A stretch of 64,000 nucleotides of DNA from Bacteroidota bacterium (GTDB taxonomy: Bacteria; Bacteroidota; Bacteroidia; Chitinophagales; Saprospiraceae): positions 1-64,000 of the forward strand of contig JAKOVW010000057.1 in assembly GCA_029781865.1 (NCBI GenBank). Reading direction: 5' to 3'. Numbering within the stretch: the stretch's first letter is position 1; every line of letters starts with the position of its first letter. Below, piece by piece: positions 3,811 to 38,004 of this stretch. The translations under genes were made by a program, and so were the position numbers. The notes under the pieces are model-generated. The model worked only from the letters and a program-made list of their open reading frames with translations. It was not told the origin of the DNA and ran no database searches.

Positions 3811-3818
3811 TATCTTTG
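3811..3818 (+). promoter_or_regulatory. TAnnTTTG -7 promoter box
   Basis: The sequence TATCTTTG matches the Bacteroidota -7 consensus exactly. It lies 22 bases before the ATG at 3840. It overlaps the TTG that would give the longer reading frame, so that longer start would fall inside the promoter; this supports the ATG at 3840. Confidence 0.65.
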
Positions 3819-3839
3819 ACTGACACTAAAAACACCCTA

Positions 3840-6800: not shown

Positions 6801-8378
6801 GTTAAGCCCTCAGTTGTCATTGACAAAATGAATAACTTTAAGTCGTGCGAATTCGTAACTCTACCTGAAATAACCGGAAAAAATACAAACAAAAGAACTT
6901 CATATTATTCAATGCGAAATGGCAAAGGCAAAATCTACTCACCCGGCGATAGCATTTTTCAGAATATCCGGCTTTATGTTTTTGCAAGAGATACCAGTTA
7001 CTGCAGTGCCGAGGATAGTACTGATGTCGAAGTTCTTCATGCTTCATATTCTACATTTTATCAAACGAATTTATGTCCGGATCAAGTCTACCAAATAGGC
7101 AATTCAAGCTTTGATATCCACCATCCATCCGGCCAGGAAATCATCCGCGGGGGAAATCAATTTGGATGCGATAGCAATATTCTTGTAAATTTAAACTATG
7201 AACAAATAAATACTTCCATTTATAATACCAGGTTGTGCAAAGGAGATCAACTTTTATTGCATGGCAAAGTCTATTCAGAATACAATATGAATGGAATTGA
7301 CACACTAAAACAATCAAGTGCATTTGGTTGCGATAGTATTGTCCAGGTCATTATAGAATCCGTCCCTCCTGCAATATTCAATTACAGCGCTGAATTATGT
7401 GAACCAGATTCGATTCAAATCGGAAACCTGCTATTTGATCGAATGCATTCCAAACTAAGAGATACCTTAAAAGGAATGGCCCAAAATGGCTGCGACAGTA
7501 TCCGAGATATTCAAATTAAAATTATTCCCGTAGCAATTGCTTATTTTAACAAAACACTTTGCAATGAAGAGTCGATATTCATTAATGGAACCCGGTATGA
7601 CACTTCGAAATCATCAGGCATCGAACTATTCCGGTCAGCCGCTGCGAATGGATGTGACAGTATGGTATCCATTCAACTTACATTTGCTCCAAATTACTGC
7701 GCTTATTATTCAGATACTTTATGTCCTGATGAATCAATATTAGTAAATGGAACTGAATATAATATTAAAAATAAATCCGGAACCGAACACCTGCTAAGCT
7801 ATTTGGGATGCGATTCTATAATTCATATTAATTTCCATTTTAATTCATTGAATCTAAGTTACAGTAAAGATGTTTACCTTTTTGCAGGTCAAAGCAGGCA
7901 GTTGATTATTTATCCGGAATTTAAACCCCAATCCATACAATGGTCGCCGGATAAAGACTTAAGTTGTGATGATTGCCTGAATCCAATTGCAAGTCCTAAA
8001 GAAAATACTACCTATACGTTGTTTTTGACTGATTCAATGGGTTGCAGTACTTCTGTGCAGATAAACATCCATGCAGACACAAGCAATTCAATATATTTAC
8101 CCAATGCATTCTCTCCAAACAATGATCTTATTAATGACATATTTAAACCTACAAGTCCAAACAGCAAACTGTTTATTTCCCAATTTATCATCTATGACCG
8201 CTGGGGAAATCTGATCTATTCGGAATCCAATAAACCGATTGACAATCTGATCGGCTGGGATGGCAGAACAATAAACCACACCCAATTGGATCCGGGAGTA
8301 TTTGTATACTACATTAAACTATTAACATCTGGTAAGGAATATAAAATAATTTCCGGGAACATTAGTCTAATCAGATAA
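3840..8378 (+). CDS. Giant T9SS type B substrate with two families of internal repeats
   Basis: 1512 residues from the ATG at 3840, which starts a signal peptide (MRHAIILLLVCCRIYVNPQC). An upstream in-frame TTG at 3816 lies in the promoter box and is rejected. After a Cys-rich N-terminal domain (to about residue 330) come five or so repeats of about 80 residues (pattern C-(D/E)-x-(G/N)-G...STTIYA-V....C.S.P). These are followed by PKD-like segments (AGNDQAISVCE, AGNDSAFSICE). Five repeats of about 47 residues with a GCDS core follow (about residues 1070-1340). The last 95 residues match the gliding-motility/T9SS type B C-terminal domain (YLPNAFSPNNDLINDIF, IYDRWGNLIY, WDGR, PGVFVYYIKL, SGNISLIR). 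It is therefore exported by T9SS. It converges with the next gene, which has the same GCDS repeats. Confidence 0.9.
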   Translation: MRHAIILLLVCCRIYVNPQCPKITQTTTDPNCKTNCELCSGDKLTIHVSGNDLPDNGVIAFYADSISGFDPYHGRGTFIGSGKIKTTNPKCRICPQLLGFMIDACGTESKNEFLIIWTGSGFNTSDFNFDYAIQNNIFGAPNNDIGPGGCGITNGNPGLINGCSAISVGNNYNLPPNSIWIVFTSISAFTNYDFSSVCGLSCKLFVSSSTCDRTIGAFSNFDATPGPRTQLMNISSCNCSTIAIYTIPGSMTGQGDFWAEGSVVNNGCATPSFNLPNYNPAMSTVDPFNYTIPKNWCNTTYEIVGIVNPQPDLSCCTEEFTDWLTVFVNCPVANSTTLESCETNNGRSDFILENADAFILTVPGGTVDYFRDIQGILKLNSPFNSGSTTIYARVTNGNCSSALVPVKLNVLLLPVAKSITAEICDDGSGYADFDLSLLETEIKNGNKNATVLYYLDQSKSIPLSSIYHTGSTTIYATVSDAKCESKPSPIYLKVINKPQASDTILIQCSEIEDKATFILNNQTLKKANSQPLQNIRFFKEPSLINEIKSPYLSVSDTVYAIISNTKCTSDLITIILKVITPEKDSVISETSCEDQSGFGIFKLDQIKKKLQLEDTSALVEWFKDSTSLIQVQPPIIIQGMDSIYAIITKNGCPSNPIKIKLQTTVKPIAKSFMWNLCSSNTDSTVLNLNELEDSIRSKPGLKVLFSKDRFFTQLINLNYSPVQLFDTIFTAVEEGECRSNPEPLIVHTIQTPVFKNNKDTTACAFFVVPFLQGFALSPSAHYYSTKDLYGKKLNTGDTLIHSGMIYLYDNSEGCTAQDSTYIHIAKKPSAGNDQAISVCEYTTVHLNRYLNGSDPGGIFINLDNCTGFSDSVVNIKSQNGNSFRFAYLIASDPICPADTSIITIQVVKNVFAGNDSAFSICENSKLNIDPGSLHADPGGQFIDSLLTGALTEFIWDGTRSGPGNFILKYEIGDDISCPKDQAYIFIHVKPSVVIDKMNNFKSCEFVTLPEITGKNTNKRTSYYSMRNGKGKIYSPGDSIFQNIRLYVFARDTSYCSAEDSTDVEVLHASYSTFYQTNLCPDQVYQIGNSSFDIHHPSGQEIIRGGNQFGCDSNILVNLNYEQINTSIYNTRLCKGDQLLLHGKVYSEYNMNGIDTLKQSSAFGCDSIVQVIIESVPPAIFNYSAELCEPDSIQIGNLLFDRMHSKLRDTLKGMAQNGCDSIRDIQIKIIPVAIAYFNKTLCNEESIFINGTRYDTSKSSGIELFRSAAANGCDSMVSIQLTFAPNYCAYYSDTLCPDESILVNGTEYNIKNKSGTEHLLSYLGCDSIIHINFHFNSLNLSYSKDVYLFAGQSRQLIIYPEFKPQSIQWSPDKDLSCDDCLNPIASPKENTTYTLFLTDSMGCSTSVQINIHADTSNSIYLPNAFSPNNDLINDIFKPTSPNSKLFISQFIIYDRWGNLIYSESNKPIDNLIGWDGRTINHTQLDPGVFVYYIKLLTSGKEYKIISGNISLIR

Positions 8379-8440: not shown

Positions 8441-11400
8441 TTATCTGATTAGAGTGAGATTTCCACTCAATTGATGATTAATTCCTGCTTTGTCTTTGAA
8501 TACAAAGAGATAAACATATACCCCTGGTAATGCCTTTTGCGAATTCGCTTCCCCATTCCATGCACCTTCTACACCATTCGGCGGGAAATTTTTCCGTTCA
8601 TAAAGCTGATTTCCCCAGCGGTCATAAATGTGCAATTCTTCAATATTGTCAATGCTGCGATCTGTAATCAAATTGAAAAAGTCATTGATATTATCTCCAT
8701 TCGGTGAAAATACATTGGGCACATAAAAATTTTGTTTACTCTTTACATAAATAGACTCTTCATAAATACATCCGTTATTATCAGTGATCACGACTTTGAA
8801 ATCGCCACCAAAAGAATTGATGAATACGGAGGTGGACAGGCAATTTTTACAACTGATATAACCGGGGCCACTCCAGGTCACATTCGCAATTGAATCGATA
8901 TTATTCAAAAAGACTTCCAGATATACTGAATCACCCAAAATGACTGACAAGGAATCCGGTTGTAAATTAATATCTCCTCTCCTGGCAGGATCAATATTTA
9001 ATTGATAACTCACTTCACAACCATTGGAATCTTTTACAGTCACTTCATGAGCCCCCACTTCAGCAAATTCCTTTAAAGATGTAAAAGAAACGACTCTTCC
9101 ATCAAGTAAATAGCTGTAAGGTGGCTTACCACCATTTATTGCTTTTATCAAAATATCTCCTTTCAAAGGATCCATACAACTTGCATTTTTCACATCGAGT
9201 AGAAAAATTAGTTTTTCAGGAGATACAATTTCAACATCCTGTTCCACCATACAATTATAGCTGTCTGTGATAGATACTTTATAATTTCCTGCTGCAAGTT
9301 GATTCAAATCCGCTGTGTTTTGGCCATTGCTCCAGTTGTATTTATAAGGACCGTTAGTGCCGTTCACCTTTAATTTTATGGTTCCGCTTTTATCGCCAAA
9401 ACACAATAATGATTTTGATTCTATGGTCACTTCGGGTCTTTTTGTTTTCCTGATACGGACAGCAAGTGTACTATCACATCCATTTACTGTAGTATATTTT
9501 AAATAAAAATCCGATTCATCCGAATATACTTTACCATCTATTAGTATTTGTCCGTCAAAACAAATGACTGTGTCCAGTCGCGAATTAAACACAGGCTTTA
9601 CTTTGAGATTCATCGTAATTAAACTATCACATCCATTAGACGTTTTCAGTCCAATCTGATACATTCCCTGGCTGGAGTAATACTGCGATCCTATCTGGAC
9701 TGAATAACCCTGACAAACCGAGGTATCAATTAAACTTTGATAAGACTTGTAATTGCCCAGATTGATGTGTAAGATACTATCACATCCACCAATGCTGGTC
9801 AACTGTTGCGTGTAATTTCCGGCTACCGTGTAATCTGAATTCCCTATCCGGATACTTAGATTATCGCATATAGCAGTATCTAAATTCACATCGTATTTAT
9901 CGAGAACTTTAAGATTCAATATAAGCGTACTATCACATCCGAATGCATTCAACAGATCCACTTGATAAATTCCGCTGGAATCAAAATTTTTTCCTGCAAA
10001 TAAATAGGATTGACCTTTGCAGATACTTTTGTCAAAGTTAAATTGATGTACCGGAAATACATTTAGCTTTAGTTGCATATTGCTGTCACAACCTTCCACC
10101 GTCTTTAAATTTAAATTGTAAATACCTGTTTGATTATATATCTGTGAACCGAAAATCATTTGGTTACCCTCACAAAAACTGGTATCGATTGCTTTAAAGT
10201 AAACCGGATTGACCAGCAAATTCACATTCACTATACTATCGCATCCGTCCTTGCTGGTTAAGTTTAAGCTATACAGGCCGGTTTGATCCAATGTCAGGTT
10301 ACCAGCCTGAATGTTTTGCCCCTGGCAGATGGCAGTATCAATCTTCTGTGAAACATCTTTATTCACAACAAGGTGTATGGTCACTACACTATCACAACTT
10401 GCTATAGAACTATAATGCAACTGGTAATCACCACTCACGTAAAACGTATCCTGGCCAACTATATAATGTTCACCCTCGCAAATAGAAACATTAATCGGTG
10501 TATCGTAAATTTTATTCACCGTTAAATTTAAAATGCTCAGACTATCACATCCCTGTGCTGTTTTACTCAGCACCTGATAAACTCCCGAAGAATCATACAA
10601 AATTCCATTTATATCCAAGAATTCATTTTCACAAATGGTCGTATCCAATGCACCCTGTCCAGGTGTATTAACTATTAAATTCAAATGAACAATACTATCA
10701 CAACCATTAGCTGATGGAATGACTACTCGGTAATTTCCTGATTTTGTAAAAAAGTTATCTCCGACTTTAAAAATTTCACCTTTGCAAATTTGTTGTTTTA
10801 TATCTGATGTCAAACTGTCAATAGTATAATTGAATGTATTACTCAATTCACAATCTGCTCCGTCAATCGCTTTTAATACGTACTTTCCGACTTGTCCTTT
10901 CGGAATTAAATAATTCTGCATGGTGGCACCATTGATTGCAATGCCATTAAAATACCATTGATAATTAATCCTGGAAATTTTAGTAGGTGGTGAAGACAAT
11001 TGAATGGAATCAATGCAAGGATTTCCCTGCACACTTAAATAGATAGAATCGAATTTGGCAGATTCTTCAAGGATAAAATCATCACACCAAAAATAATAAT
11101 ATCCGTCAGCACGCGGACAGGCAGGTCCAACAACTATAGCTTCAACAGTCCTGGTCGGACGTATTTTGACTTTAACTTTAACCCATTTATTTGTCCCGCT
11201 GGCTGTGACACTGGTCAATAAAAACCAACCCGGATATGCTGTCGGGCAAGACCAACCACCGTTACCAAAAGGTAAATTACTGCAAACTGAAGTTCCGAAA
11301 ATACTCAAAGTAGTGATCGCTCTTGGGCCCCAAAATCCACCGGGTTTACCAAATCCGATCCAGAACGAAAGTGTATAATCCTTGCCCGGAAGCATGGAAC

Positions 11401-11848
11401 TGGTAAGACAGGCCCCTACATATTCTTTGTAGGTGGTATTTGTCCCTGGACGATCCTTTAAATCCAAAAAACCTACATAACCGTTTCCGGCCGGCAAAGG
11501 CTGAGGAGGATAACCCCGCATAGTCGGATCATCTTTAAATCCACACGTATTATAGTAATCTGAAGTAGCTGAAGAAGCTTGTATCCAGTTTTTAATATGA
11601 AAAGTATCGATTTGAGCCAAACCGGTAGGACATAATTTATAGTCTTCAAATGACGGATTCGGTATTAAAGAAGAAGGCACAAAAATAGTATCCTTGATTC
11701 CTTTGCATTTACAATCCGGATCATTGAGATCGATTAATCCATCACCATCATCATCCAATCCGTTGGCACAATCCTCTACAAGCATTTGACCATGGCCAAC
11801 CCATGCATAAAGGATTAATAAATTAAAGATAATGAACCGGTTAATCAT
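8441..11848 (-). CDS. Large T9SS type B substrate with nine GCDS repeats and SprB-like domains
   Basis: 1135 residues with a signal peptide (MINRFIIFNLLILYAWVGHG). Directly after it is an Asp-rich calcium-binding motif (NGLDDDGDGLIDLNDPDC, about residues 29-46). A lectin-like or carbohydrate-binding-like region follows (about 50-270). Nine tandem repeats of about 47 residues come next (about 350-785), with pattern D-x-x-(I/V/F)-C-x-(G/N)...G.Y...L....GCDS...(L/I).L.V. Two SprB-like domains follow (SGTIKLKVNGTNGPYKYNWSNGQ; KGDILIKAINGGKPPYSYLLDG). The end is a type B sorting domain (VPNVFSPNGDNINDFF, IYDRWGNQLYERKNF, GVYVYLFVF, LSGNLTLIR). It is predicted to be displayed on or released from the surface through T9SS. 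Repeats and the calcium motif suggest an adhesin; this role is inferred. Confidence 0.9.
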   Translation of the reverse strand: MINRFIIFNLLILYAWVGHGQMLVEDCANGLDDDGDGLIDLNDPDCKCKGIKDTIFVPSSLIPNPSFEDYKLCPTGLAQIDTFHIKNWIQASSATSDYYNTCGFKDDPTMRGYPPQPLPAGNGYVGFLDLKDRPGTNTTYKEYVGACLTSSMLPGKDYTLSFWIGFGKPGGFWGPRAITTLSIFGTSVCSNLPFGNGGWSCPTAYPGWFLLTSVTASGTNKWVKVKVKIRPTRTVEAIVVGPACPRADGYYYFWCDDFILEESAKFDSIYLSVQGNPCIDSIQLSSPPTKISRINYQWYFNGIAINGATMQNYLIPKGQVGKYVLKAIDGADCELSNTFNYTIDSLTSDIKQQICKGEIFKVGDNFFTKSGNYRVVIPSANGCDSIVHLNLIVNTPGQGALDTTICENEFLDINGILYDSSGVYQVLSKTAQGCDSLSILNLTVNKIYDTPINVSICEGEHYIVGQDTFYVSGDYQLHYSSIASCDSVVTIHLVVNKDVSQKIDTAICQGQNIQAGNLTLDQTGLYSLNLTSKDGCDSIVNVNLLVNPVYFKAIDTSFCEGNQMIFGSQIYNQTGIYNLNLKTVEGCDSNMQLKLNVFPVHQFNFDKSICKGQSYLFAGKNFDSSGIYQVDLLNAFGCDSTLILNLKVLDKYDVNLDTAICDNLSIRIGNSDYTVAGNYTQQLTSIGGCDSILHINLGNYKSYQSLIDTSVCQGYSVQIGSQYYSSQGMYQIGLKTSNGCDSLITMNLKVKPVFNSRLDTVICFDGQILIDGKVYSDESDFYLKYTTVNGCDSTLAVRIRKTKRPEVTIESKSLLCFGDKSGTIKLKVNGTNGPYKYNWSNGQNTADLNQLAAGNYKVSITDSYNCMVEQDVEIVSPEKLIFLLDVKNASCMDPLKGDILIKAINGGKPPYSYLLDGRVVSFTSLKEFAEVGAHEVTVKDSNGCEVSYQLNIDPARRGDINLQPDSLSVILGDSVYLEVFLNNIDSIANVTWSGPGYISCKNCLSTSVFINSFGGDFKVVITDNNGCIYEESIYVKSKQNFYVPNVFSPNGDNINDFFNLITDRSIDNIEELHIYDRWGNQLYERKNFPPNGVEGAWNGEANSQKALPGVYVYLFVFKDKAGINHQLSGNLTLIR

Positions 11849-27690: not shown

Positions 27691-30600
27691 ATGAAAATCT
27701 ACTTCACCTTCTTTATCTTATTTCTCTTATCTGTGGAATCCTTTGGACAGGATCGCTATGATGAAAAATATTATAAGTCAATGGAATGGCGACATATCGG
27801 ACCTTATCGCGGGGGACGCTCATGTGCTGTGACGGGGGTAGAAAGCAGACCCAAAGAATTTTATATGGGAACCACAGGAGGAGGTGTATGGAAAACAGTA
27901 GATGCCGGTACTAGCTGGACTAATATTTCAGATGGTTTTTTCGGAGGCAGCATTGGAGCAGTCGAAGTCGCTGCTGCAGATCCGAATGTCATTTATGTTG
28001 GAGAAGGCGAAGAAACCATCAGGGGAAACATGAGTCCGGGACGAGGTCTTTGGAAAACCGAAGATGGCGGAAAAACCTGGGTTAAATCCGGACTCGAAAA
28101 CACAAAGCATATAGTTCGCATCAGGACACATCCTAAAAATGCAGACATTGTAATTGTTGCTGCATTGGGAAATATATTTAAATCAGGCCCGGATCGGGGA
28201 ATTTACAAATCCGTTGATGGAGCGAAAACATTTAAAAAAGTTCTCTTTGTAAATGACAGTACCGGGGCAATCGATCTTGTCTATGATCCTGTTAATCCCA
28301 GAATCTTATTTGCAACAACCTGGAATGTGCAGCGCAATGCATTTAAATTATCGAGCGGTGGACCAGGATCTGCATTATGGAGAAGTTCTGACGGCGGAGA
28401 AACCTGGAAGGACATATCCAAAAACAAAGGATTGCCGGAAGGAATCTGGGGGAAGTGCACCGTTGTAGTTTGTAACTCTAATCACGACCGTGTATATGCA
28501 ATGATTGAAAATGAAAATGGCGGTTTATACCGTTCTGATGATGGAGGACTAAGCTGGAATCTGATGAATTCTGGAAGAGAATTAAGACAACGCGCCTGGT
28601 ATTTCTCGCGGCTTTGCGCTGATCCCGCCAATGACAATATCATTTTTGTTCAGAATGTTTCTATGCACAAATCGCTAGATGGCGGCAAAACATTTACCAC
28701 CTTTCCTACAAATCATGGAGATCATCACGATATGTGGATCAATCCCTCAGATTATAAACTAATGATTGTAGCTGATGACGGTGGTGGTGTAGTCAGTGAA
28801 GATGGAGGCAAACATTGGTCTTCCCAAAACAACCAACCAACTGCACAATTCTACAGAATTACAACTGACAACTATTATCCATTCAGGATCTATGCGGCAC
28901 AACAAGACAATAGCACTGTTCGCATATCCCATCGCACTTACGGTTATTCAATTGGCAAAAATGATTGGGAAGCAACCGCCGGAGGCGAATCCGGTCATAT
29001 TGCAGTCGACCCTCTGAATCCGGAAATTGTTTATGGTGGATCTTACGGTGGCTATTTAATCCGGTTTGATCATCAAAAAATGATTAATCGAAGTGTTCAT
29101 GTCTGGCCTGATAATCCAATCGGACATGGTGCAGTAAATCTGAAATACCGCTTTCAATGGAATTTTCCAATTTTCTTTTCTCCGCATAATCCTAAAAAAT
29201 TGTACTGTGCTTCAAATCATTTGCACGTCACTGAAAACGAAGGTCAGTCCTGGAAAACCATAAGTCCGGATCTAACCAGAAATGATTCAACTAAATTACA
29301 AGCATCCGGCGGACCAATTACAAAAGACAATACTTCTGTAGAATACTATTGCACCATTTTTGCAGCTGCAGAATCTCCGCGGGTTAAAGATTTATTGTGG
29401 GTAGGATCAGATGATGGACTTGTGCACATAAGTAAAGACGGAGGTATGCACTGGACGAATGTAACCCCACCTACTCTGCCGCAATGGACAATAATAAACT
29501 GTATCGAACCGGATCCGCATATAGACGGAGGATGTTATATAACTGCAACAGCATACAAAAATGGTGACTTTAATCCCTATCTTTTTAAAACGGAAGACTT
29601 TGGAAAATCATGGACAAAAATTACCAAAGGGATTCCAAATGATTATTTTACGAGAACATTAAGAGCAGACCCGGTTACTAAAGGTTTATTGTTTGCAGGA
29701 ACAGAATACGGAATGTTTGTTTCTTTTGATGACGGTAAAAACTGGAAACCATTTCAACTTAATTTACCTGTTGTACCAGTTACGGATCTGCTCATCAAAA
29801 ATGAGTTTCTCATTGCAGCTACACAAGGAAGGAGTATATGGATGATTGATGATTTGGGTCCTCTGAGACAGCTCGGATCAATCACAAACAACAAGAAAAC
29901 TATTTTATTTAAGCCCAAACCTTCCATTCGCATGGATGGTGGCTCATTTGATTCAAAGTCAGAAGGGATCAACCATCCCAATGGTTTAATCGTAAGTTTT
30001 TATACAGATACATTAAATTCAAAAGACACTACAAAATTTATTTGCCTGGATCAGGCTGCGGATACACTTGCCATTTACTCTACTCATCCAACGGACAACG
30101 AAAACAAAATTGAATTAAAATCCGGTAGTAACCGGCTCATCTTAAATCCACGTATGAAACCTGCTCAGGATTTCCCTGGCATGGTGTTGTGGTGGGCGAA
30201 TCTTTCAGGTCCTAAAGCGCTACCGGGTAAATATAAACTTATCCTTAGCGGAAAGAATATTTCTGAAAATACAGAATTTGAAATTGTAGCGGACCAGAAA
30301 TACCCTTTTAGCGAAGAAGATGTAAAAAAGCAATACGCCTTTATTAAAAAAATAAGAGACCGGCTTGATCAGGCCAATAAAGCCATCATACAAATTCGCG
30401 ACATACGCAATCAACTTAGTGATTTTACATCTAAAATGGATAAATCGGAAATCACCGATACGCTCTTTAAAATAAAGACCATCATTGACAGCACCCTGAA
30501 TGGAATTGAAAATGAACTTTATCAAACCAAAAATAAAAGCAATCAGGATCCTATAAATTATCCGATAAAACTGACCAACAAATTAGCCCATCTGACTTCT

Positions 30601-30783
30601 TTATTTGAACAAGGCTCCTTTCCTCCTACTGATCAGGCAGAGGAATACAGACTTGAAATCGATGCTTTAATCGAACAACAACTAAAATCATTTGAAAATG
30701 TTAGACAAAATGAATTAAAGCAATTCAATACAATTGTCAACAAATTGAACTTAGAAGTCATAAAGCCAAAAAAAATAAAGTAG
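27691..30783 (+). CDS. BNR/sortilin (VPS10-like) beta-propeller protein, 1030 residues
   Basis: The signal peptide (MKIYFTFFILFLLSVESFGQ) is followed by a long array of BNR/Asp-box repeats (about 25-720). Typical Asp boxes are VDAGTSWTN, EDGGKTWVK, SDGGETWKD, SDDGGLSWN, EDGGKHWS and KDGGMHWTN. The family is often called glycosyl-hydrolase-like or WD40/YVTN/BNR protein and has about 1000-1080 residues in Bacteroidota; no catalytic residues for hydrolysis can be named here. After the propellers comes a beta-domain (about 740-870) and a helical C-terminal part (about 875-1030, rich in Lys, Glu and Ile). No T9SS tail is visible, so it may stay in the periplasm. The function is unknown. It ends three bases before the TonB-like gene. 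Confidence 0.88.
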   Translation: MKIYFTFFILFLLSVESFGQDRYDEKYYKSMEWRHIGPYRGGRSCAVTGVESRPKEFYMGTTGGGVWKTVDAGTSWTNISDGFFGGSIGAVEVAAADPNVIYVGEGEETIRGNMSPGRGLWKTEDGGKTWVKSGLENTKHIVRIRTHPKNADIVIVAALGNIFKSGPDRGIYKSVDGAKTFKKVLFVNDSTGAIDLVYDPVNPRILFATTWNVQRNAFKLSSGGPGSALWRSSDGGETWKDISKNKGLPEGIWGKCTVVVCNSNHDRVYAMIENENGGLYRSDDGGLSWNLMNSGRELRQRAWYFSRLCADPANDNIIFVQNVSMHKSLDGGKTFTTFPTNHGDHHDMWINPSDYKLMIVADDGGGVVSEDGGKHWSSQNNQPTAQFYRITTDNYYPFRIYAAQQDNSTVRISHRTYGYSIGKNDWEATAGGESGHIAVDPLNPEIVYGGSYGGYLIRFDHQKMINRSVHVWPDNPIGHGAVNLKYRFQWNFPIFFSPHNPKKLYCASNHLHVTENEGQSWKTISPDLTRNDSTKLQASGGPITKDNTSVEYYCTIFAAAESPRVKDLLWVGSDDGLVHISKDGGMHWTNVTPPTLPQWTIINCIEPDPHIDGGCYITATAYKNGDFNPYLFKTEDFGKSWTKITKGIPNDYFTRTLRADPVTKGLLFAGTEYGMFVSFDDGKNWKPFQLNLPVVPVTDLLIKNEFLIAATQGRSIWMIDDLGPLRQLGSITNNKKTILFKPKPSIRMDGGSFDSKSEGINHPNGLIVSFYTDTLNSKDTTKFICLDQAADTLAIYSTHPTDNENKIELKSGSNRLILNPRMKPAQDFPGMVLWWANLSGPKALPGKYKLILSGKNISENTEFEIVADQKYPFSEEDVKKQYAFIKKIRDRLDQANKAIIQIRDIRNQLSDFTSKMDKSEITDTLFKIKTIIDSTLNGIENELYQTKNKSNQDPINYPIKLTNKLAHLTSLFEQGSFPPTDQAEEYRLEIDALIEQQLKSFENVRQNELKQFNTIVNKLNLEVIKPKKIK

Positions 30784-30786
30784 ACC

Positions 30787-31221
30787 GTGAAAAAAGAAAT
30801 AAAACAAAAAAATTTCATTCCTCAACCTGAGTATTCCGGTGGACCTAAAGCAATGGCAAAGTTTATCCAGGAAAACTTAAAATATCCATCCAATGCATTG
30901 GAAAATAAAATCGAAGGTACTGTAGTATTAAAATCCGAAATCAATTTCAAGGGTGAGGTCATACATACTAAAGTAATTTCCGGGATTGGCTTTGGTTGTG
31001 ACGAAGAAGCAGAACGCGTTGTCAGCTTACTTAAATTTCATGTAGACAAGGTGCGCAACATTAAAATTACGTATTTCAAAACATTTAATATTCACTTTAA
31101 ACTTCCTGCACCCGTCCAAACAAATATTAACTATGTATTGGTAGACACACCCAAGAAAAACATACCTGCCGAAAATACAGCTCAAAAAGAAGGATATACC
31201 ATTACAATAAACTTTAATTAA
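30787..31221 (+). CDS. TonB C-terminal-domain protein without a membrane anchor
   Basis: 144 residues starting with GTG at 30787. About residues 12-100 resemble the TonB C-terminal (energy-transducer) domain: PEYSGGPKAMAKFIQENLKYPSNAL, KIEGTVVLKSEINFKGEVIHTKVISGIGFGCDEEAERVV. A normal TonB has an N-terminal membrane helix and a Pro-rich linker; both are missing here and there is no signal peptide. The last 40 residues are low in features. The gene sits three bases behind the BNR gene and is surely in the same transcript. Such isolated domains occur in Bacteroidota as parts of larger proteins; the role of this free form is unknown. Confidence 0.8.
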   Translation: MKKEIKQKNFIPQPEYSGGPKAMAKFIQENLKYPSNALENKIEGTVVLKSEINFKGEVIHTKVISGIGFGCDEEAERVVSLLKFHVDKVRNIKITYFKTFNIHFKLPAPVQTNINYVLVDTPKKNIPAENTAQKEGYTITINFN

Positions 31222-31329: not shown

Positions 31330-32997
31330 ATGAAAACACATCCGTTTTTAAGTTTCGCTAGTTGTATTTTATTTCAATTACTGGCATTCCAGGGTCTGAC
31401 ACTTGGTACGTATTCATCGCTTGAGTTTAATAGAACACAACCGGTTCAAGACACTACCCCTCCTGTGGTGAATTGCAATACAGGTGCGAATATCCTATCT
31501 CTTCCGGCATCCGGTTGTATTCTGATCTGGGCAAAGGATCTCGATCGGGGGAGCATTGATGACATTACTCCCGGAAACAAACTTAAATTCTATCTGAATG
31601 GAGACCCGGGCAAACCTAACATTCAAATTTGCTGCAGTGATTTTCTTAGTGCAGGTGCCTGTGACGAGTATACTTTAAATCTTGAAATGTGGGTTGAAGA
31701 TGAAGCAGGAAACAAATCCGTTTGTAAAACGACAGTCTTTATTCAGGATGATCTTGACGCATGCAGCTGCCAGAGCTCCGGTTTTTCCATAAAAGGATTT
31801 ATTGGAAATCGTTGCAATACGCGCTCTGAAGCAAATCTGAAATTAACCGGACCGAACAATTATTCACGCACGTCCTTTGGACCCTATATCCGCTATTATG
31901 AATTATTAACTGGCCCTTATCAATTATGCCTGGAACGAAATGATTATCCGCTAAATGGAGTTTCCACCGCTGATATCGTAAAAATCCAAAGACACATATT
32001 GGGAATTGAATACTTCAATCAATCGACTCAGATCCTGGCAGCAGACGTCAATAATAGCTCAACTATCACTACAGCCGATATCACTGAAATCAGAAAGTTA
32101 ATTCTGGGAGTCAAATCTGCATTCTCTAAAGTACCCAGTTGGATATTTGTTCCTTCTGATTCTTTGCTGAATCCGGCCAGGTTGCCACATGTCAATGATT
32201 ACAAAGACGGTTGCTGGAATTTTGAATTAAAAAATACTTCACTTGACAGTCTTAACTTTACCAGTATTAAAATGGGCGATGTCAATTGCACCGCAAAACT
32301 TACCGAACAATCTAAAATTGAATTAAGAAATAAGCCTGATTCATATTTATTGACCTACTCTTCCAGATCAGAAAACAACCAATTCGTTTCAACAGATTTT
32401 AAATTTGATCAGAATATAGATATCCAGGCATTGCAACTAACTCTGCTATTTGATGCAAGTCAGTTTGAATTCGAAACTATAAAAGCCGGACAAATATCAC
32501 TTAGCGAAGAGCACATTTCATTAGAAGATATTGGCAATGGAAAAATTCATATTGCCTGGAATAAAGATCAGAATAACAGGATACCCATACATTCCGGAAT
32601 TTTATTTTCCGTGAGATTAAAGACTAAATCGAATTCCAACCATGAACCTTTGTTCTATTTCGATCCGCTGGGAATAAAACCACTCCTGACTGATCCTGAA
32701 TTGAATGAACTCGATATAACTTTAAAAGAATTAACATCTCATGGTTTATTCATCAAAAGCATAGCACAAAACCGGAACATTCTCTATATCAATTACACAT
32801 CAGGTTACAATGTGGATTCAAACTATTCATTAACTGACCTCAATGGCCGAAATGTTGCCAATGGCAATATTCGGTTTCAAAAGGAGCGTCAGATAGAAAG
32901 CATTCCATTAAATAGTAATCTTTCTGCCGGTATCTATCTGCTCCAAATACACTCCAAATTGTATTCAGCTACTTTTAAAGTTATCATCCTTGGTTGA
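31330..32997 (+). CDS. Dockerin-like/cohesin-like T9SS type A surface protein, paralogue 1
   Basis: 555 residues. The signal peptide is at about 1-27. An N-terminal domain of HYR-like type (about 40-140) begins DTTPPVVNC and ends WVEDEAGNKSVCKTTVFIQDD. A carboxypeptidase-regulatory-like strand region follows (150-200). Next is a type I dockerin-like pair (about 203-262): NDYPLNGVSTADIVKIQRHILG and ADVNNSSTITTADITEIRKLILG, with Asp/Asn at the calcium-loop positions. A cohesin-like beta domain comes next (about 345-470: QALQLTLLFDASQFEFETI, GKIHIAWNK, SGILFSVRLKTK). The end is a T9SS type A sorting domain (SLTDLNGRNVANG, LSAGIYLLQI, ATFKVI). Domain names are by eye. It is the first of four tandem paralogues. 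Confidence 0.88.
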   Translation: MKTHPFLSFASCILFQLLAFQGLTLGTYSSLEFNRTQPVQDTTPPVVNCNTGANILSLPASGCILIWAKDLDRGSIDDITPGNKLKFYLNGDPGKPNIQICCSDFLSAGACDEYTLNLEMWVEDEAGNKSVCKTTVFIQDDLDACSCQSSGFSIKGFIGNRCNTRSEANLKLTGPNNYSRTSFGPYIRYYELLTGPYQLCLERNDYPLNGVSTADIVKIQRHILGIEYFNQSTQILAADVNNSSTITTADITEIRKLILGVKSAFSKVPSWIFVPSDSLLNPARLPHVNDYKDGCWNFELKNTSLDSLNFTSIKMGDVNCTAKLTEQSKIELRNKPDSYLLTYSSRSENNQFVSTDFKFDQNIDIQALQLTLLFDASQFEFETIKAGQISLSEEHISLEDIGNGKIHIAWNKDQNNRIPIHSGILFSVRLKTKSNSNHEPLFYFDPLGIKPLLTDPELNELDITLKELTSHGLFIKSIAQNRNILYINYTSGYNVDSNYSLTDLNGRNVANGNIRFQKERQIESIPLNSNLSAGIYLLQIHSKLYSATFKVIILG

Positions 32998-33151
32998 TAA
33001 CACTTGAAGTATATAAAATCGGTTAGAAAATTTATTTAACCGCAATTTAGTGGGAAAGTCGTATATTGGTTTCCGGTTTCAGGCAATCGTCACCCAATTT
33101 TTGTTTAATTCTCTGAATTAGAACGTTTTAGAACACTAATAAAATATTGTC

Positions 33152-34117
33152 ATGAAACTATGCACGCGATTCTGTTTTTACTGCTTCACCCTGTTGCTGT
33201 TACCATTTTGGGTCTTTTCCGAACATGTAACTGCGGAGCCAATTCGACCAATAATTCTAATTAATAATGACACTACACGACCCACAGTATATTGCCTGAC
33301 GGGTATAGTTACTGTTCCTTTACCTGCTACCGGGTGCATAACCATCTTTGCAAAAGATCTTGATCGCGGTAGTTTCGACAATGTTACTGCCTATGAAAAC
33401 CTAAAATTTTACTTCAATGGTGATCGCTCGAAATCATCTCTAACCATTTGTTGCGATGATTTTGTTGCTGCAAGAGTAAACGACGAATTACTTGTAAAGG
33501 TCCATATGTGGGTTGAAGACGAAGCCGGCAATACCGACTCTTGTGAAACGACTCTAATCATACAGGACATACTTGACATCTGTCCTTACGAACTTCCCTT
33601 TTATTCAATAAAAGGAAACATTCCGTACTATGGCTCACTATTGGGAGCTACAAATACAATATTAACCGGCCCAAATGGAATGCATCTTGAATCGGATAAG
33701 AATCCCTATAGTTTTAATGATCTTCCAAATGGCAGCTATACCGTTTGTGTCGAAAGAAATGATGATCCATTAAATGGGGTGTCAACAGCAGACATTGTAA
33801 TGATCCGAAGGCATATACTGGGTACTGTGCCTTTGACTTCACCGTATCAATTGATAGCTGCAGATGTAAACCTTTCTAAATCTACAACCGCTTCGGATTT
33901 ATCAGAAATAAAAAAATTAATTTTAGGTGTTACTACTAAATTTAATAAAGTGCCAAGCTGGATTTTCATTACCTCTGATTTTACTTTTACTTCGAATGTT
34001 TTTACAAATATTCCATCCTGCAAAACTTTGGAAATAAAAGACAATTCTAATGATAAAGTAGATTTTATTGGCGTAAAAATGGGCGATGTGAATGGATCCG
34101 CAAGAGGTCACAATTAA
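33152..34117 (+). CDS. Dockerin-like protein, truncated paralogue 2 (no cohesin-like domain, no T9SS tail)
   Basis: 321 residues. The signal peptide (MKLCTRFCFYCFTLLLLPFWVFS) and HYR-like domain (about 40-145, DDTTRPTVYC-like start, WVEDEAGNTDSCETT end) are followed by a dockerin-like pair (about 205-265: DDPLNGVSTADIVMIRRHILG; ADVNLSKSTTASDLSEIKKLILG). The frame then ends in GVKMGDVNGSARGHN, exactly where paralogue 4 (GDVTDNAAGHN) goes on into its cohesin-like domain. No remnant of the missing 240 residues follows; the next gene starts within 45 bases. The product has a Sec leader but no T9SS tail, so it is expected to stay in the periplasm unless carried by a partner. A decayed copy is the other possibility. 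Confidence 0.85.
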   Translation: MKLCTRFCFYCFTLLLLPFWVFSEHVTAEPIRPIILINNDTTRPTVYCLTGIVTVPLPATGCITIFAKDLDRGSFDNVTAYENLKFYFNGDRSKSSLTICCDDFVAARVNDELLVKVHMWVEDEAGNTDSCETTLIIQDILDICPYELPFYSIKGNIPYYGSLLGATNTILTGPNGMHLESDKNPYSFNDLPNGSYTVCVERNDDPLNGVSTADIVMIRRHILGTVPLTSPYQLIAADVNLSKSTTASDLSEIKKLILGVTTKFNKVPSWIFITSDFTFTSNVFTNIPSCKTLEIKDNSNDKVDFIGVKMGDVNGSARGHN

Positions 34118-34161
34118 ATTTAATGTGCCAAGTTGATATTTTGACATCAAATTTTTTTTTA

Positions 34162-35823
34162 ATGAAATCCATTTCGTTTCATTTCAACATGCATAGGGCT
34201 TACATTATAATGATTTTGAGTCTATTTCTGTTTGCAACCGGAAAAGCAAAGCAATTTCAAGACAGAAACCTGATACAAGATACTATTCCACCAACAGCAA
34301 TATGCAACCCAGGAGTAGATACCATCAATATGTTTGCTTCCGGATATATCACCATATATGCGCGCGATTTTGCAGGAAGCAGCTTTGACAATGTAAGTTC
34401 ATTTAAAAAATTAAAATTTTATTTCAACGGCCTTAAGAATGCCGACACCCTGCAAATACGATGCATTGATTTAACGAACGGCACACCGGATGGTTATGCA
34501 GTTCAATTTGAAATTTGGGTAGAGGATGAAGCCGGTAACACAGATCATTGCTCCAAAGAATTCTTTTTCGTTGACTACTCGGATTTTTGTCAAATTGATT
34601 GGATTCAAATTCATATTAAAGGAAAAATTGAAACGATATCCGGAGACTTAATAATCGCCCACCAATCATTAATGGATCACTTGAAACTTATAAATGAAAA
34701 CACTTCGAGTACAATCCATTTTGATAATCTCAGAAGTAATTTTTATACGCTTTGTTTGGACAAAAATGAAAATCATCTCAATGGAGTTAGCACGGCAGAT
34801 ATAGTAAGAATACAGAGACACATTTTAGGAATAGAGCTATTAAATTCGCCATATAAATTACTTGCCGCTGATGTGAATTATTCAAACACGATATCGGCTG
34901 CAGATATCACTGAAATCAGAAGATTGATCCTGGGTTTTAAAAGTAAATTCAGTAAAGTGCCATCCTGGATATTTATTCCTAAGCGTGCTGAATTCAAGAA
35001 TGATTCTGATCTTAATCTGCATAAATATATACCCTCTTGTTTTGATTTGGAAATCAAGCAATATAAATCCATTGACGATTTAGACTATTTCGCCATAAAA
35101 ATGGGAGATATCAACAATACTGCAAGAAATCTTATTCAAACCGAAACATTTTCACGCCAAAAAGAGATTTCATTGTTTTACCGAACCACTGACTTGTCGG
35201 ATGAATTTAGCGTCACTTCATTCGAATTAAGCAATAATATTAACTTGTCCAGTTTACAGTTCAGCCTGATCTTCGATCCTCTTGAAGTTACTCCGGTTAA
35301 AATTCAGAATGCCGCTATCAAATTTGAAGTCGAACAATATTCCTTTTTGGATGCCCCGTTGGGTAAAATTCATGTTGCCTGGGACAAATCTCCATTGGAA
35401 AATACAAACATCAATACAGGCACATTATTTTCAATTCTGTGGAAAAAGAAAACAACAGTAAAAACTGCACCGATAATTTACTTTGATTCAGAAAGAATAA
35501 CTCCTCTGGTTTCAGATGAAAATTTAAACGAATTCTATTTAAGACTTCAAAATAAAATAACAAATTCATCAGATCATATTTCCGCCTTCCAGGACTTTCA
35601 AAAGCAAACCATAGAAATTGAAACCATAAATTCTAATGAATCTTTAATAAATTATACAATACACGATATCTCCGGACACTTCATAAGCCAAAAGACAATC
35701 CGAATGGCTCCGGGAAATCTGCAAATCAGCATCCCATTACAAATACTACCTGTGAATGGTATATATTTGTTCAAACTCCAATCCGGTCAATATACCCAAA
35801 CATTTAAACTAGTTAAGTTATGA
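34162..35823 (+). CDS. Dockerin-like/cohesin-like T9SS type A surface protein, paralogue 3
   Basis: 553 residues from the ATG at 34162 (MKSISFHFNMHRAYIIMILSLFLF), which places a hydrophobic leader near the start; an in-frame ATG at 34123 would give a poorer leader. The HYR-like domain is at about 40-140 (DTIPPTAIC ... WVEDEAGNTDHCSKEF). The dockerin-like pair is at about 200-260 (HLNGVSTADIVRIQRHILG; ADVNYSNTISAADITEIRRLILG). The cohesin-like domain is at about 345-465 (LSSLQFSLIFDPLEVTPV; GKIHVAWDK; NTGTLFSILWKKK) and the T9SS type A tail is at the end (YTIHDISGHFISQKT, VNGIYLFKLQSGQYTQTFKLVKL). Its stop overlaps the next start by four bases (ATGA), so translation of paralogue 4 is coupled to it. 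Confidence 0.87.
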   Translation: MKSISFHFNMHRAYIIMILSLFLFATGKAKQFQDRNLIQDTIPPTAICNPGVDTINMFASGYITIYARDFAGSSFDNVSSFKKLKFYFNGLKNADTLQIRCIDLTNGTPDGYAVQFEIWVEDEAGNTDHCSKEFFFVDYSDFCQIDWIQIHIKGKIETISGDLIIAHQSLMDHLKLINENTSSTIHFDNLRSNFYTLCLDKNENHLNGVSTADIVRIQRHILGIELLNSPYKLLAADVNYSNTISAADITEIRRLILGFKSKFSKVPSWIFIPKRAEFKNDSDLNLHKYIPSCFDLEIKQYKSIDDLDYFAIKMGDINNTARNLIQTETFSRQKEISLFYRTTDLSDEFSVTSFELSNNINLSSLQFSLIFDPLEVTPVKIQNAAIKFEVEQYSFLDAPLGKIHVAWDKSPLENTNINTGTLFSILWKKKTTVKTAPIIYFDSERITPLVSDENLNEFYLRLQNKITNSSDHISAFQDFQKQTIEIETINSNESLINYTIHDISGHFISQKTIRMAPGNLQISIPLQILPVNGIYLFKLQSGQYTQTFKLVKL

Positions 35824-37157
35824 TTATTAATGTGCTCAATCGACTGACCAGGTTCTATTTAATCGTGCTCTTATTACTTGTTCTGACTTCCTTCGAACTC
35901 ATAATAGCACAAGTTTTTATATCACATAAAAACATCTTGTCCTCTAATGATCAATTAGCTGAAGTCACCGGTTCCATTAGAAACCGAAAAGGATTGCCGG
36001 TGGAAGCCGGTATTAAACTTGGCAATGATTCCGTCTTTTCTAGCGACTTCCAATTTGCACTGCTTCCGGGAATTTATCAAATATGTCCACGCAGGGACGA
36101 CAATCCATTAACAGGTATAACGACCGCAGATATAGTAAAAATTCAGAGACACATTCTGGGAATAGAATCCTTCACCAATTCCTATGCTTATATGGCTGCT
36201 GATGTGAACCAATCCAATACCCTGACAGCTGCAGACGTGACTGAAATCAGACGTTTGGTGCTTGGTGTCATTGCCGATTATACCAAAGTTCCCAGTTGGA
36301 TATTTGTTCCAAAAGACAGCACTTTCCCTGATATCGTTTTTCCAAGTGTCTCTTATTTTAAAACCTATTGCAGACATTTCGAAATAGGAGCCATATCCAA
36401 TCAAAAAATTGATTTTATTGCAATTAAAATGGGAGATGTAACCGATAATGCTGCCGGACATAATTACACCAATACGGAAAATCGAACTATTTACTCCACC
36501 ATGCTATCTTATAGCACAGAAAAAATCAATCCATCGCTTTTAAGTACAACTTTTAAACTTGCAAAAGAAATTGATTTAGCGGGACTGCAATTCACTTTAA
36601 CCTTTAACCCTGATGAATTTGATTTTTATCAAATCAACAATGGCAACATACAGCTCACTGATGATCAATACACATTAAAGGATTTAGCACAAGGCAAAAT
36701 TCATATCGCCTGGGACCAATATCCATTGAACAAAACAGATGGGGTTACCGGAAATTTGTTTTCGATTATATGGAAAAAGAAAAATTCTTCTGTTTTACGT
36801 CCTGTTCTGAATTTAGATCCGAAAGGTATTCCTCCATTGCTCATCGATCAAAATCTTCACGAATTAGATCTGAGTCTGAAAAGCGAAACGCAAGATATTT
36901 CAGAATCGAACAGGATTTCTATCAATCAGGACAATGATTACATTTATTTTCACGGACAACAGAAGCTAAATTCTACTGCCTTTATTTCCATAACGGATAT
37001 TTCAGGACGCGTTCTTTCACAAGAAACCATTGAACTGAATGAAGGAATTTTCAATAAGAAAATAAAAATCCCGGAATCTTTAAATGGCGAATTGTATTTC
37101 ATAAACGTACACACGGAAACGTTTTACAAAACGTTTAAATTCATCAAATTAAATTGA
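35820..37157 (+). CDS. Dockerin-like/cohesin-like T9SS type A surface protein, paralogue 4 (short N-terminus)
   Basis: 445 residues. The signal peptide (about 1-31, RFYLIVLLLLVLTSFELIIAQ) leads almost directly into a small carboxypeptidase-regulatory-like region (EVTGSIRNRKGLPVEAGIKL). The HYR-like domain of paralogues 1-3 is missing. The dockerin-like pair follows at about 93-152 (DDNPLTGITTADIVKIQRHILG; ADVNQSNTLTAADVTEIRRLVLG). Then come the cohesin-like domain (about 235-360: LAGLQFTLTFNPDEFDFYQI; GKIHIAWDQ; GNLFSIIWKKK) and the T9SS type A tail (ISITDISGRVLSQETI; YFINVHTETFYKTFKFIKL). Start and upstream stop overlap as ATGA. The consistent linkage of dockerin, cohesin-like domain and tail in three of four paralogues suggests one shared structural role. 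Confidence 0.88.
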   Translation: MIINVLNRLTRFYLIVLLLLVLTSFELIIAQVFISHKNILSSNDQLAEVTGSIRNRKGLPVEAGIKLGNDSVFSSDFQFALLPGIYQICPRRDDNPLTGITTADIVKIQRHILGIESFTNSYAYMAADVNQSNTLTAADVTEIRRLVLGVIADYTKVPSWIFVPKDSTFPDIVFPSVSYFKTYCRHFEIGAISNQKIDFIAIKMGDVTDNAAGHNYTNTENRTIYSTMLSYSTEKINPSLLSTTFKLAKEIDLAGLQFTLTFNPDEFDFYQINNGNIQLTDDQYTLKDLAQGKIHIAWDQYPLNKTDGVTGNLFSIIWKKKNSSVLRPVLNLDPKGIPPLLIDQNLHELDLSLKSETQDISESNRISINQDNDYIYFHGQQKLNSTAFISITDISGRVLSQETIELNEGIFNKKIKIPESLNGELYFINVHTETFYKTFKFIKLN

Positions 37158-37269: not shown

Positions 37270-38004
37270 TCACTTTATTTTATTTTCCGAAATTCTTTCC
37301 TGCCACCACCAAACCGGCAAATAATACAAGAGAAAAGAAGCGAGCATGACTACCTGACCGGTTAATAAATACCATGGCCAGGGTCCGAGAAAATCCAGTA
37401 ACGTAGCAGCATCCGGTTTATGCATGGTAAAGAAATAATTGCCACCGGTCATCAGATTGACAAGTATTGAAAAAACCAAATAGATATTGGCACCAATAAT
37501 TGCATTTTTAATATCGCTAAAATAGATTTTCCATTTAAACACCAGTAAACAATAAATCACAATGCTAATCATACCGCAATGTATCCACCAGTAACGCAAA
37601 TACATATAATGAGGAAATGGTTGCTTTAAATCAGGTGTAAGCACAGCCTGCATGGTACCCGCAAGCACCCAAAAATACAGAATGGCAAAAAACCATCTGG
37701 ATTTAAAATGCAGTGCAATTGGAATCACCAGAGTCAGGATATTACACAAATGAAATGGCAGATCTTCCTTGATATCGAATTGGCCAATAAAGGCTCTGTA
37801 AATCATCCACCATAAAACCGCAAAAGCCAAAGTCCAGGAAAACACGATCGCAGATTGATACTGCCTGGATTTACTCCATGATGCTGCAAATCGAATCCAC
37901 AATATTGTTGAAATAATAAAAACAAGCACAGGAACTCCATGTTCGATGGTGAATGGCCGGAAACCGGTTTGATTTCCGAATAATTGGTCCTGCCAGAAAC
38001 TCAT
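37270..38004 (-). CDS. TIGR02206-family (YwaF-like) integral membrane protein
   Basis: 244 residues with seven predicted transmembrane segments. The stretches FTIEHGVPVLVFIIS, DLPFHLCNILTLVIPIAL, LYFWVLAGTMQAVLTPDL, YLRYWWIHCGMI, NYFFTMHKPDAATLLDFLGPWPWYLLTGQ are the marks of the TIGR02206/YwaF family. The family is of normal length and has no established function. It is at the inner membrane. It is read towards the dockerin cluster (convergent with paralogue 4), with a 112-base gap between stops. A TATCTTGC box (one position off the consensus) lies just before the start. Confidence 0.88.
   Translation of the reverse strand: MSFWQDQLFGNQTGFRPFTIEHGVPVLVFIISTILWIRFAASWSKSRQYQSAIVFSWTLAFAVLWWMIYRAFIGQFDIKEDLPFHLCNILTLVIPIALHFKSRWFFAILYFWVLAGTMQAVLTPDLKQPFPHYMYLRYWWIHCGMISIVIYCLLVFKWKIYFSDIKNAIIGANIYLVFSILVNLMTGGNYFFTMHKPDAATLLDFLGPWPWYLLTGQVVMLASFLLYYLPVWWWQERISENKIK

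Follow-up and report, generated by a model that had tools for sequence, protein, structure and literature searches.

Pairs of cohesin and dockerin are best known from anaerobes, in which they assemble enzymes. In this work, we ask what such modules do in a bacterium of the family Saprospiraceae, in which four tandem genes at positions 31,330 to 37,157 of contig JAKOVW010000057.1 (assembly GCA_029781865.1) carry them on exported chains. The window is the whole stretch of 64,000 nucleotides of this contig that was analysed. An initial annotation had described four dockerin-like exported proteins, three of them continuing to a beta domain resembling a cohesin and to a type A tail of the type IX secretion system (T9SS), and had raised the idea of a self-assembling surface lattice, with purely intramolecular binding as an alternative. 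With roughly even confidence we arrived at a T9SS-delivered cohesin-dockerin surface system of Saprospiraceae, whose cargo dockerins would dock in trans, most likely on multi-cohesin proteins; a lattice of these proteins is plausible.

Exported chains that combine dockerin and cohesin

Pfam Dockerin_1 matched all four proteins, and both repeats are present. The curated cut-off was passed by gene 2 alone in the protein scan, and by genes 1-3 in a whole-genome search, in which gene 4 remained below it. The continuation of three proteins to a cohesin and a T9SS type A tail was borne out by Pfam, alignment and the NCBIfam model TIGR04183 (T9SS type A; cut-off 23), which gave 26.4, 31.4 and 22.6 bits for genes 1, 3 and 4, the last just below the cut-off, and no match in gene 2. 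For Cohesin (PF00963), gene 1 scored 23.2 bits in the protein scan, against a cut-off of 24.1, and 24.8 bits in the genome search; gene 4 stayed below the cut-off, and the Pfam protein scan returned no match in gene 3, yet gene 3 aligns throughout with genes 1 and 4. These results confirm that the dockerin modules are real and stand on the same exported chains as the cohesin modules.

An AlphaFold2 model of gene 1, which starts shortly ahead of the TTR-like domain, extends to the C-terminus and was built with 114 sequences (3 from the window and 111 from related loci), reached a mean predicted local distance difference test score (pLDDT) of 90.4 and a predicted template modelling score (pTM) of 0.81. 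Its nine best PDB matches in Foldseek were cohesin-containing chains, with 2w1n at the top (E 1.4e-8); further cohesins followed at lower rank (5nrk, TMt 0.70 over 139 columns; 4ums, TMt 0.60), and Ig-like proteins were also present, with weaker scores, among the 198 matches at E 0.001. When the cohesin profile was compared with the PDB, 4uyp_A, the partner of 4uyp_B, ranked third (2.6e-5). The model confirmed the cohesin beta-sandwich fold of gene 1.

A near-constant C-terminal cassette

In the genome of the window, the dockerin search gave 36 matches at E 1, 25 of them above the cut-off, and the cohesin search 20, with 15 above it. Among 14 control genomes dockerin matches at E 1 occurred in nine (two above the cut-off) and cohesin matches in two (one above); as the dockerin search also matches controls at E 1, little weight can be placed on its weakest matches. 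Of the 20 cohesin matches, 18 are located directly C-terminal of a dockerin in the same frame, and the other two (C51:14927 and C75:103124) sit in dockerin-less proteins ending in a T9SS type B (CHU_C) domain.

As relatives we used 77 loci, kept from the best 80 of 262 and titled Saprospiraceae, Saprospirales, Chitinophagales, Bacteroidetes/Bacteroidota or Aureispira. Every one of the 393 dockerin-bearing open reading frames (ORFs) of the fetched loci holds exactly one dockerin, and 376 of the 378 ORFs carrying both modules hold one cohesin. The dockerin is followed by 260-305 amino acids (aa) in 306 of 313 unique ORFs with a complete C-terminus, the seven exceptions having 46, 48, 54, 54, 165, 205 and 448 aa; such uniform spacing means that the arrangement is not due to chance. 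TTR-like domain, dockerin, cohesin and T9SS type A tail form a near-constant C-terminal cassette. With its profile, 108 of 120 family genomes gave a strong match (E 2.6e-40 or better), and the remaining 12 gave only matches of E 8e-13 to 5e-19, probably to the tail. Gene 4 as a query found 18-31 matches in each of the eight same-genus genomes with a completeness of 97% or more; seven genomes from other families of the order gave 0-1. At E 1e-12, a TTR-dockerin profile matched nine of 247 phylum-wide genomes, five of the same family and four others, one each; there was no match at this threshold in G021, the sixth same-family genome of that set. Ten cassette proteins, of about 30 in the genome of the window, were scanned for domains and carry HYR, DUF11, SdrD_B, CarboxypepD_reg, C-type lectin, ice-binding-like, Ig-like or SprB domains, with no enzyme domain among these ten.

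On average, two cassettes are 59% identical in the dockerin and 23% in the cohesin. The cohesin is variable as a whole domain, and the notion that it is simply variable does not hold for the canonical contact face. Among the 306 cassettes, Q238 is found in 302, G236 in 271, S278 in 271, E321 in 268 and Y323 in 269. In the C. thermocellum cohesin, according to the part of PMC5772552 available to us, N37, D39 and A125 contact the Ser/Thr motif of the dockerin; G236, Q238 and probably E321 align with N37, D39 and about A125, the equivalence at 236-238 being supported by profile alignments via related cohesins and that at 321 being deduced. Eight outward positions of the canonical dockerin-contact face average 2.98 bits against 1.14 for eight positions of the opposite face, a comparison that is partly post hoc, because strand alternation, contacts known from the literature and a bulge at 321 suggested by covariation guided the choice of the face positions.

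The dockerin consists of two tandem F-hand repeats with D at position 12; D84, D108 and D119 occur in 306 of 306 cassettes. Its initial assignment to the type I architecture stood as regards the two repeats and loop 2, which is canonical in the 306 relatives, and not as regards loop 1, which mostly lacks the calcium ligand at position 5, so that the complete ligands in both loops of a type I dockerin are not found. In gene 1, loop 1 is NDYPLNGVSTAD and degenerate, and loop 2 is DVNNSSTITTAD and canonical. A segment FxxxKxGDVN, lying C-terminal of the dockerin, is near-invariant (K 304, G 301 and D 304 of 306). This post-dockerin segment covaries with a TTR strand (L70-F179, L68-N178) and with the dockerin (I88-V187, F98-V187, S81-T190), which suggests that the dockerin is part of a TTR-dockerin composite, in which GDVN may complete the first calcium site. 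A model of the gene 2 composite (pLDDT 93.8, pTM 0.88) had weak PDB matches, one at E 0.001, with TTR and CNA_B-like folds among them; as no X-module-dockerin (XDoc) was among the 50 matches shown, an XDoc identity was rejected. The best PDB match of the TTR-dockerin profile is the ScaB dockerin of A. cellulolyticus, 4uyp_B (9e-8).

A composite of this kind, with its covarying post-dockerin segment, would also suit both modules being mere structural beads of an adhesin stalk, with no binding between dockerin and cohesin, and the degenerate loop 1 and the HYR/DUF11/lectin-type passengers fit such a role. Inert spacers would not be expected, however, to keep a conserved cohesin face or to share a code at several recognition positions (see below), and we consider this explanation quite improbable.

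Some members of the family have unusual architectures. Giant cassette proteins of about 4100-5500 aa recur in same-genus genomes (L061, L064 and similar ORFs), and a scanned one of 4280 aa has DUF11 and SdrD_B domains. The cassette protein at L067:1994-7930 (minus strand) carries a C-type lectin domain and, at the N-terminal end, one that is ice-binding-like. An ORF of 1008 aa at 1628 of L229 (G086:C139) stops right after the dockerin composite (KMGDVNGSW) and has neither cohesin nor T9SS tail, and no cohesin frame was seen within 900 bases past the stop. At L068 (G000:C80:74000-84500), two tandem proteins have a degenerate dockerin-like region and, by eye, a T9SS-A-like tail, and no cohesin was seen in them.

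A dockerin code particular to each genome

In order to look for a genome-specific code, we compared 700 within-genome cassette pairs with 28,475 between-genera pairs, matched at 18-34% identity of the rest of the cassette; pairs more than 34% identical there were omitted, and each genome known by accession only was counted as its own genus. Positions identical more commonly within genomes, by more than 0.15, made up 15 of 60 in the dockerin, 1 of 57 in the TTR-like domain, 0 of 65 in the post-dockerin segment, 0 of 120 in the cohesin and 1 of 86 in the C-terminal domain. Outside the genus of the window (132 within-genome pairs) they were 16 of 60, 2 of 65 and 0 of 120 in the dockerin, post-dockerin segment and cohesin, respectively. 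The dockerin recognition set with which these positions were compared is, except for its Ser/Thr positions, the one that we take to be generally accepted. The Ser/Thr positions come from the part of PMC5772552 that describes them. The recognition set accounts for seven of the 15 code positions (11, 17, 18 and 22 in half 1; 10, 11 and 22 in half 2), and the medians were 0.31 for the eight recognition positions and 0.05 for the other 40 variable positions of the dockerin (p 1.7e-4). In 100 label shuffles, which do not preserve relatedness, none of the dockerin positions passed. Relatedness could be hidden by saturation of the fast domains, but outside the dockerin the slow positions have almost no excess. 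Gene conversion was rejected as the cause of the alike dockerins, because synonymous identity is near expectation and at most slightly raised, with a ratio of 1.095 in the recognition segments and 1.045-1.075 elsewhere.

The code suggests selection by a common partner in each genome. As the cassette cohesins do not share it, the comparison points to a partner in trans, and the cis cohesin does not look like the one that sets the code. The intramolecular binding offered initially as an alternative, by which each chain's dockerin would pack on its own cohesin and the pair would serve as a rigid stalk, is weakened by this result. It would agree with one dockerin and almost always one cohesin per cassette, with a spacer between them as constant as the loops of domains (K183-R202, standard deviation 0.93) and with the defined overall arrangement that the pTM of the gene 1 model suggests. 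Against it stand also the existence of dockerin-only and cohesin-only proteins and the outcome of a mean-field direct coupling analysis (DCA) of the 306 cassettes (effective number of sequences, Meff, 273), in which dockerin-cohesin pairs took 6 of the top 200 places, or 0.89 per 1000 against 0.56-1.45 for other distant domain pairs. With no covariation above background, intramolecular docking was not adopted as the principal explanation, and we regard it as distinctly unlikely.

Proteins with several cohesins

Our own cohesin profile yielded 411 ORFs with a cohesin and 389 with a dockerin; both modules were present in 378, leaving 33 without a dockerin and 11 without a cohesin. These numbers include overlapping loci and ORFs cut by locus ends and are not gene counts. 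Eighteen of the 33 cohesin-only ORFs have 2-6 cohesins, as in a scaffoldin, and 15 have one. Five dockerin-less proteins, scanned with Pfam, all contain SprB and CHU_C, with 1, 1, 4, 2 and 1 cohesin stretches (best E 1e-12, 6e-16, 4e-22, 3e-15 and 6e-4), so that Pfam counts several cohesins (4 and 2) in two of the five; no carbohydrate-binding module (CBM) was detected in them at E 0.05. Proteins that lack a dockerin and combine several cohesins with SprB repeats and a T9SS type B tail are new here. Q238 is retained in 51 and W279 in 53 of the 57 cohesins of dockerin-less ORFs, at least three of which are cut ends of cassette ORFs.

A scaffold profile was made of three N-terminal cohesins (434 positions), and a match was considered strict when it covered at least 235 of these, i.e. 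at least two cohesins. In 61 family genomes, strict matches and the cassette occurred together in 45, the cassette only in 9, the scaffold only in 0 and neither in 7 (Fisher p=2.6e-5, uncorrected for phylogeny). Some match at E 1e-15 was present in 52 of the 61, in seven of the 52 to a single cohesin only; co-occurrence counted in this loose way (p 8e-8) was discarded as too lax, since single cohesins and, weakly, cassette cohesins match the profile too. For the gene neighbourhood, 20 multi-cohesin genes were chosen in the order of their E-values, leaving out the genome of the window, a gene at a contig start and one with a neighbour already seen; for a few of the 20 (e.g. in G002) the neighbour was known from an earlier listing before selection. 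Within the 1.2-4.1 kb upstream, a dockerin-cohesin gene is present on the same strand in nine cases, and a gene for a single-cohesin T9SS type A protein of 262-283 aa on the same strand in seven.

These associations bear on the explanation that the dockerins bind a common non-cohesin receptor, e.g. a surface or T9SS-linked protein, with the cohesins serving another purpose. A genome-wide code suggests a common partner, and the scaffold cohesins covary with it unconvincingly, the cassette cohesins not at all. However, cohesin-rich genes co-occur with and adjoin cassette genes, the cassette cohesins keep a conserved face at the canonical contact positions and, to our knowledge, dockerin partners are all cohesins. 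We consider a receptor of this kind unlikely.

Proposed assembly

In the trans-docking system that we favour, each cargo would end in the cassette, with the dockerin within the TTR-like domain, the cohesin, and the T9SS tail for export and anchoring. The dockerins of one genome, with their shared code, would dock in trans on a common partner, and we infer that the likeliest one is the cohesins of surface-anchored multi-cohesin proteins with SprB repeats and a T9SS type B tail, the genes of which often lie directly downstream of a cassette gene. Because each docked cargo would bring its own cohesin, it could in turn receive more dockerin proteins, among them those with a dockerin only, such as gene 2. 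What would form on the outer membrane is an adhesive network of proteins and not an enzyme complex.

Several observations weigh against this proposal. Eight of the 15 code positions are outside the recognition set, including the core-like position 13 of both halves. Over 31 genomes, the dockerin code and the face of the scaffold cohesins gave a Mantel r of 0.04 (p 0.28), and for the individual scaffold domains r was -0.04, 0.17 and 0.11 (p 0.75, 0.012 and 0.054), which is weak after three tests; as code and face did not clearly covary, the scaffold cohesin was not accepted as the proven partner. Dockerin-cohesin coupling in the DCA of 306 cassettes was not above background. Position 5 of loop 1, a calcium ligand, is L/M/I/V in 250 of 306 chains (194+23+20+13), and the GDVN segment covaries with the dockerin. 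The three cohesins of the window are without E321, Y323 and S278 and carry A/S/G236, Q238, H276, A278 and W279; E321 is absent in 38 of the 306 cassettes. Nine of 54 cassette-bearing genomes have no match over two cohesins, several of them being fragmented assemblies, and four of the 20 multi-cohesin genes have neither type of cohesin gene upstream.

A bolder form of the proposal, which we put forward tentatively and consider rather doubtful, would make the cassette a universal self-propagating connector: SprB-type multi-cohesin proteins would nucleate, docked cargo would offer a new cohesin, and dockerin-only proteins would cap or decorate, giving a calcium-dependent, enzyme-free, species-coded coat or matrix in which some 20-30 adhesins per cell would be interchangeable.

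A cohesin-dockerin system found throughout the family on adhesin-like T9SS surface proteins would provide a molecular basis for the surface organisation of Saprospiraceae, and orthogonal binding pairs could newly be drawn from it. Which partner the dockerins bind can be tested directly by means of their genome-specific code.

Relation to known systems

With the cellulosome (C. thermocellum; ScaB dockerin-ScaC cohesin of A. cellulolyticus, 4UYP) the Saprospiraceae system has in common both modules, homologous by sequence and in the cohesin by fold too, multi-cohesin proteins and many dockerin proteins per genome. It differs in T9SS export, in a dockerin apparently embedded in a TTR-like domain and in that nearly all dockerin proteins also bear a cohesin beside their own anchor; neither dockerin-bearing carbohydrate-active enzymes among the ten passengers scanned nor a scaffoldin CBM in the five dockerin-less cohesin proteins scanned were found. 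The cohesins of secreted hydrolases of C. perfringens, also non-cellulosomal, gave the top structural match of the gene 1 model (2W1N) and a sequence match (2JH2), but are joined to a glycoside hydrolase of a Gram-positive bacterium. SprB repeats and a CHU_C tail are presumably common to the multi-cohesin proteins and the SprB-type T9SS type B adhesins, to which the former add cohesins at the N-terminal end.

The initial statement that such an arrangement was not described for T9SS organisms held for Saprospiraceae, for which no account was found in titles and abstract openings; the survey of non-cellulosomal modules by Peer (2009) may list some of the proteins, and PMC8547425 concerns, in its accessible part, other Bacteroidetes metagenome-assembled genomes (MAGs). 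It has to be qualified by Ca. Stygibacter (Cloacimonadota), for which PMC8542988, in the part at hand, infers from the genome a scaffoldin-like protein that resembles ours in its tandem cohesins and C-terminal surface-attachment domain. Unlike in Saprospiraceae, the dockerins there are on chitinase, amylase and peptidase homologues, the scaffoldin has CBM2/CBM3, and that part of PMC8542988 mentions no dockerin-cohesin cassette, SprB repeats or gene pair. Dockerin/cohesin proteins of anaerobic methanotrophic archaea (ANME), as presented in the accessible portion of PMC9012536, are likewise non-cellulosomal, some chains having a dockerin and several cohesins; they differ in being archaeal and in their passengers, with no T9SS and no 1:1 cassette mentioned in that portion.

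The four genes and their surroundings

The four genes (Table 1) are small, atypical members of a large family of exported surface proteins. The N-terminus of gene 1 is hydrophobic, a signal peptide being judged by eye, and its N-terminal domain matched HYR at E 0.07 only. The start of gene 4 overlaps the stop of gene 3.

Table 1. Coordinates of the four genes and their domains in the window
Feature	Position	Strand	Description	Basis
Gene 1	31330..32997	+	555 aa; N-terminal domain, TTR-like, dockerin, cohesin, T9SS type A tail	ORF, Pfam, NCBIfam
Gene 1 TTR-like/dockerin composite	31765..32319	+	putative; closed by conserved FxxxKxGDVN segment	covariation of post-dockerin segment with TTR and dockerin; gene 2 model
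Gene 1 dockerin	31936..32115	+	two repeats	Pfam Dockerin_1, residues 211-258, E 0.0021
Gene 1 cohesin	32335..32697	+	without family-conserved S278, E321, Y323	Foldseek PDB cohesins; Pfam Cohesin, E 8.5e-5
Gene 1 T9SS type A sorting tail	32776..32988	+		TIGR04183, E 5e-6; Pfam Por_Secre_tail
Gene 2	33152..34117	+	321 aa; dockerin-only, stops soon after KMGDVN; no cohesin, no T9SS tail	
Gene 2 dockerin	33779..33925	+		Pfam Dockerin_1, E 2e-5, above cut-off
Gene 3	34123..35823	+	566 aa; N-terminal domain, TTR-like, dockerin, cohesin-like, T9SS type A tail	
Gene 3 dockerin	34786..34932	+		Pfam Dockerin_1, E 4.5e-4
Gene 3 cohesin-like domain	35161..35523	+	no own Pfam match	alignment to gene 1
Gene 3 T9SS type A sorting tail	35602..35811	+		TIGR04183, E 1.4e-7; Pfam span
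Gene 4	35820..37157	+	445 aa; hydrophobic N-terminus, TTR-like, dockerin, cohesin, T9SS type A tail	
Gene 4 dockerin	36117..36260	+		Pfam Dockerin_1, E 0.0069
Gene 4 cohesin	36501..36890	+		Pfam Cohesin, E 0.03; alignment
Gene 4 T9SS type A tail	36939..37142	+		TIGR04183, 22.6 bits, cut-off 23

The island is flanked (27691-31221 and 37273-38004) by VPS10/sortilin-like, TonB_C and TMEM164-like genes. In three same-genus genomes (G004, G005 and G007) these genes are adjacent with the cluster absent between them, and therefore the four-gene island is specific to the lineage of the window or was lost in those three; the flanking genes were not found together in G001, G002, G003, G006 and G008, which makes these five uninformative on the island.

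The window also encodes two other large proteins of T9SS type B (CHU_C), at 8444-11848 (minus strand) and 3816-8375 (plus strand); an SprB repeat is present in one of them, and neither gave a dockerin or cohesin match at E 1e-4. Dockerin-only proteins like that of gene 2 occur also in the same-genus genome G006, where two stand in tandem (L168).

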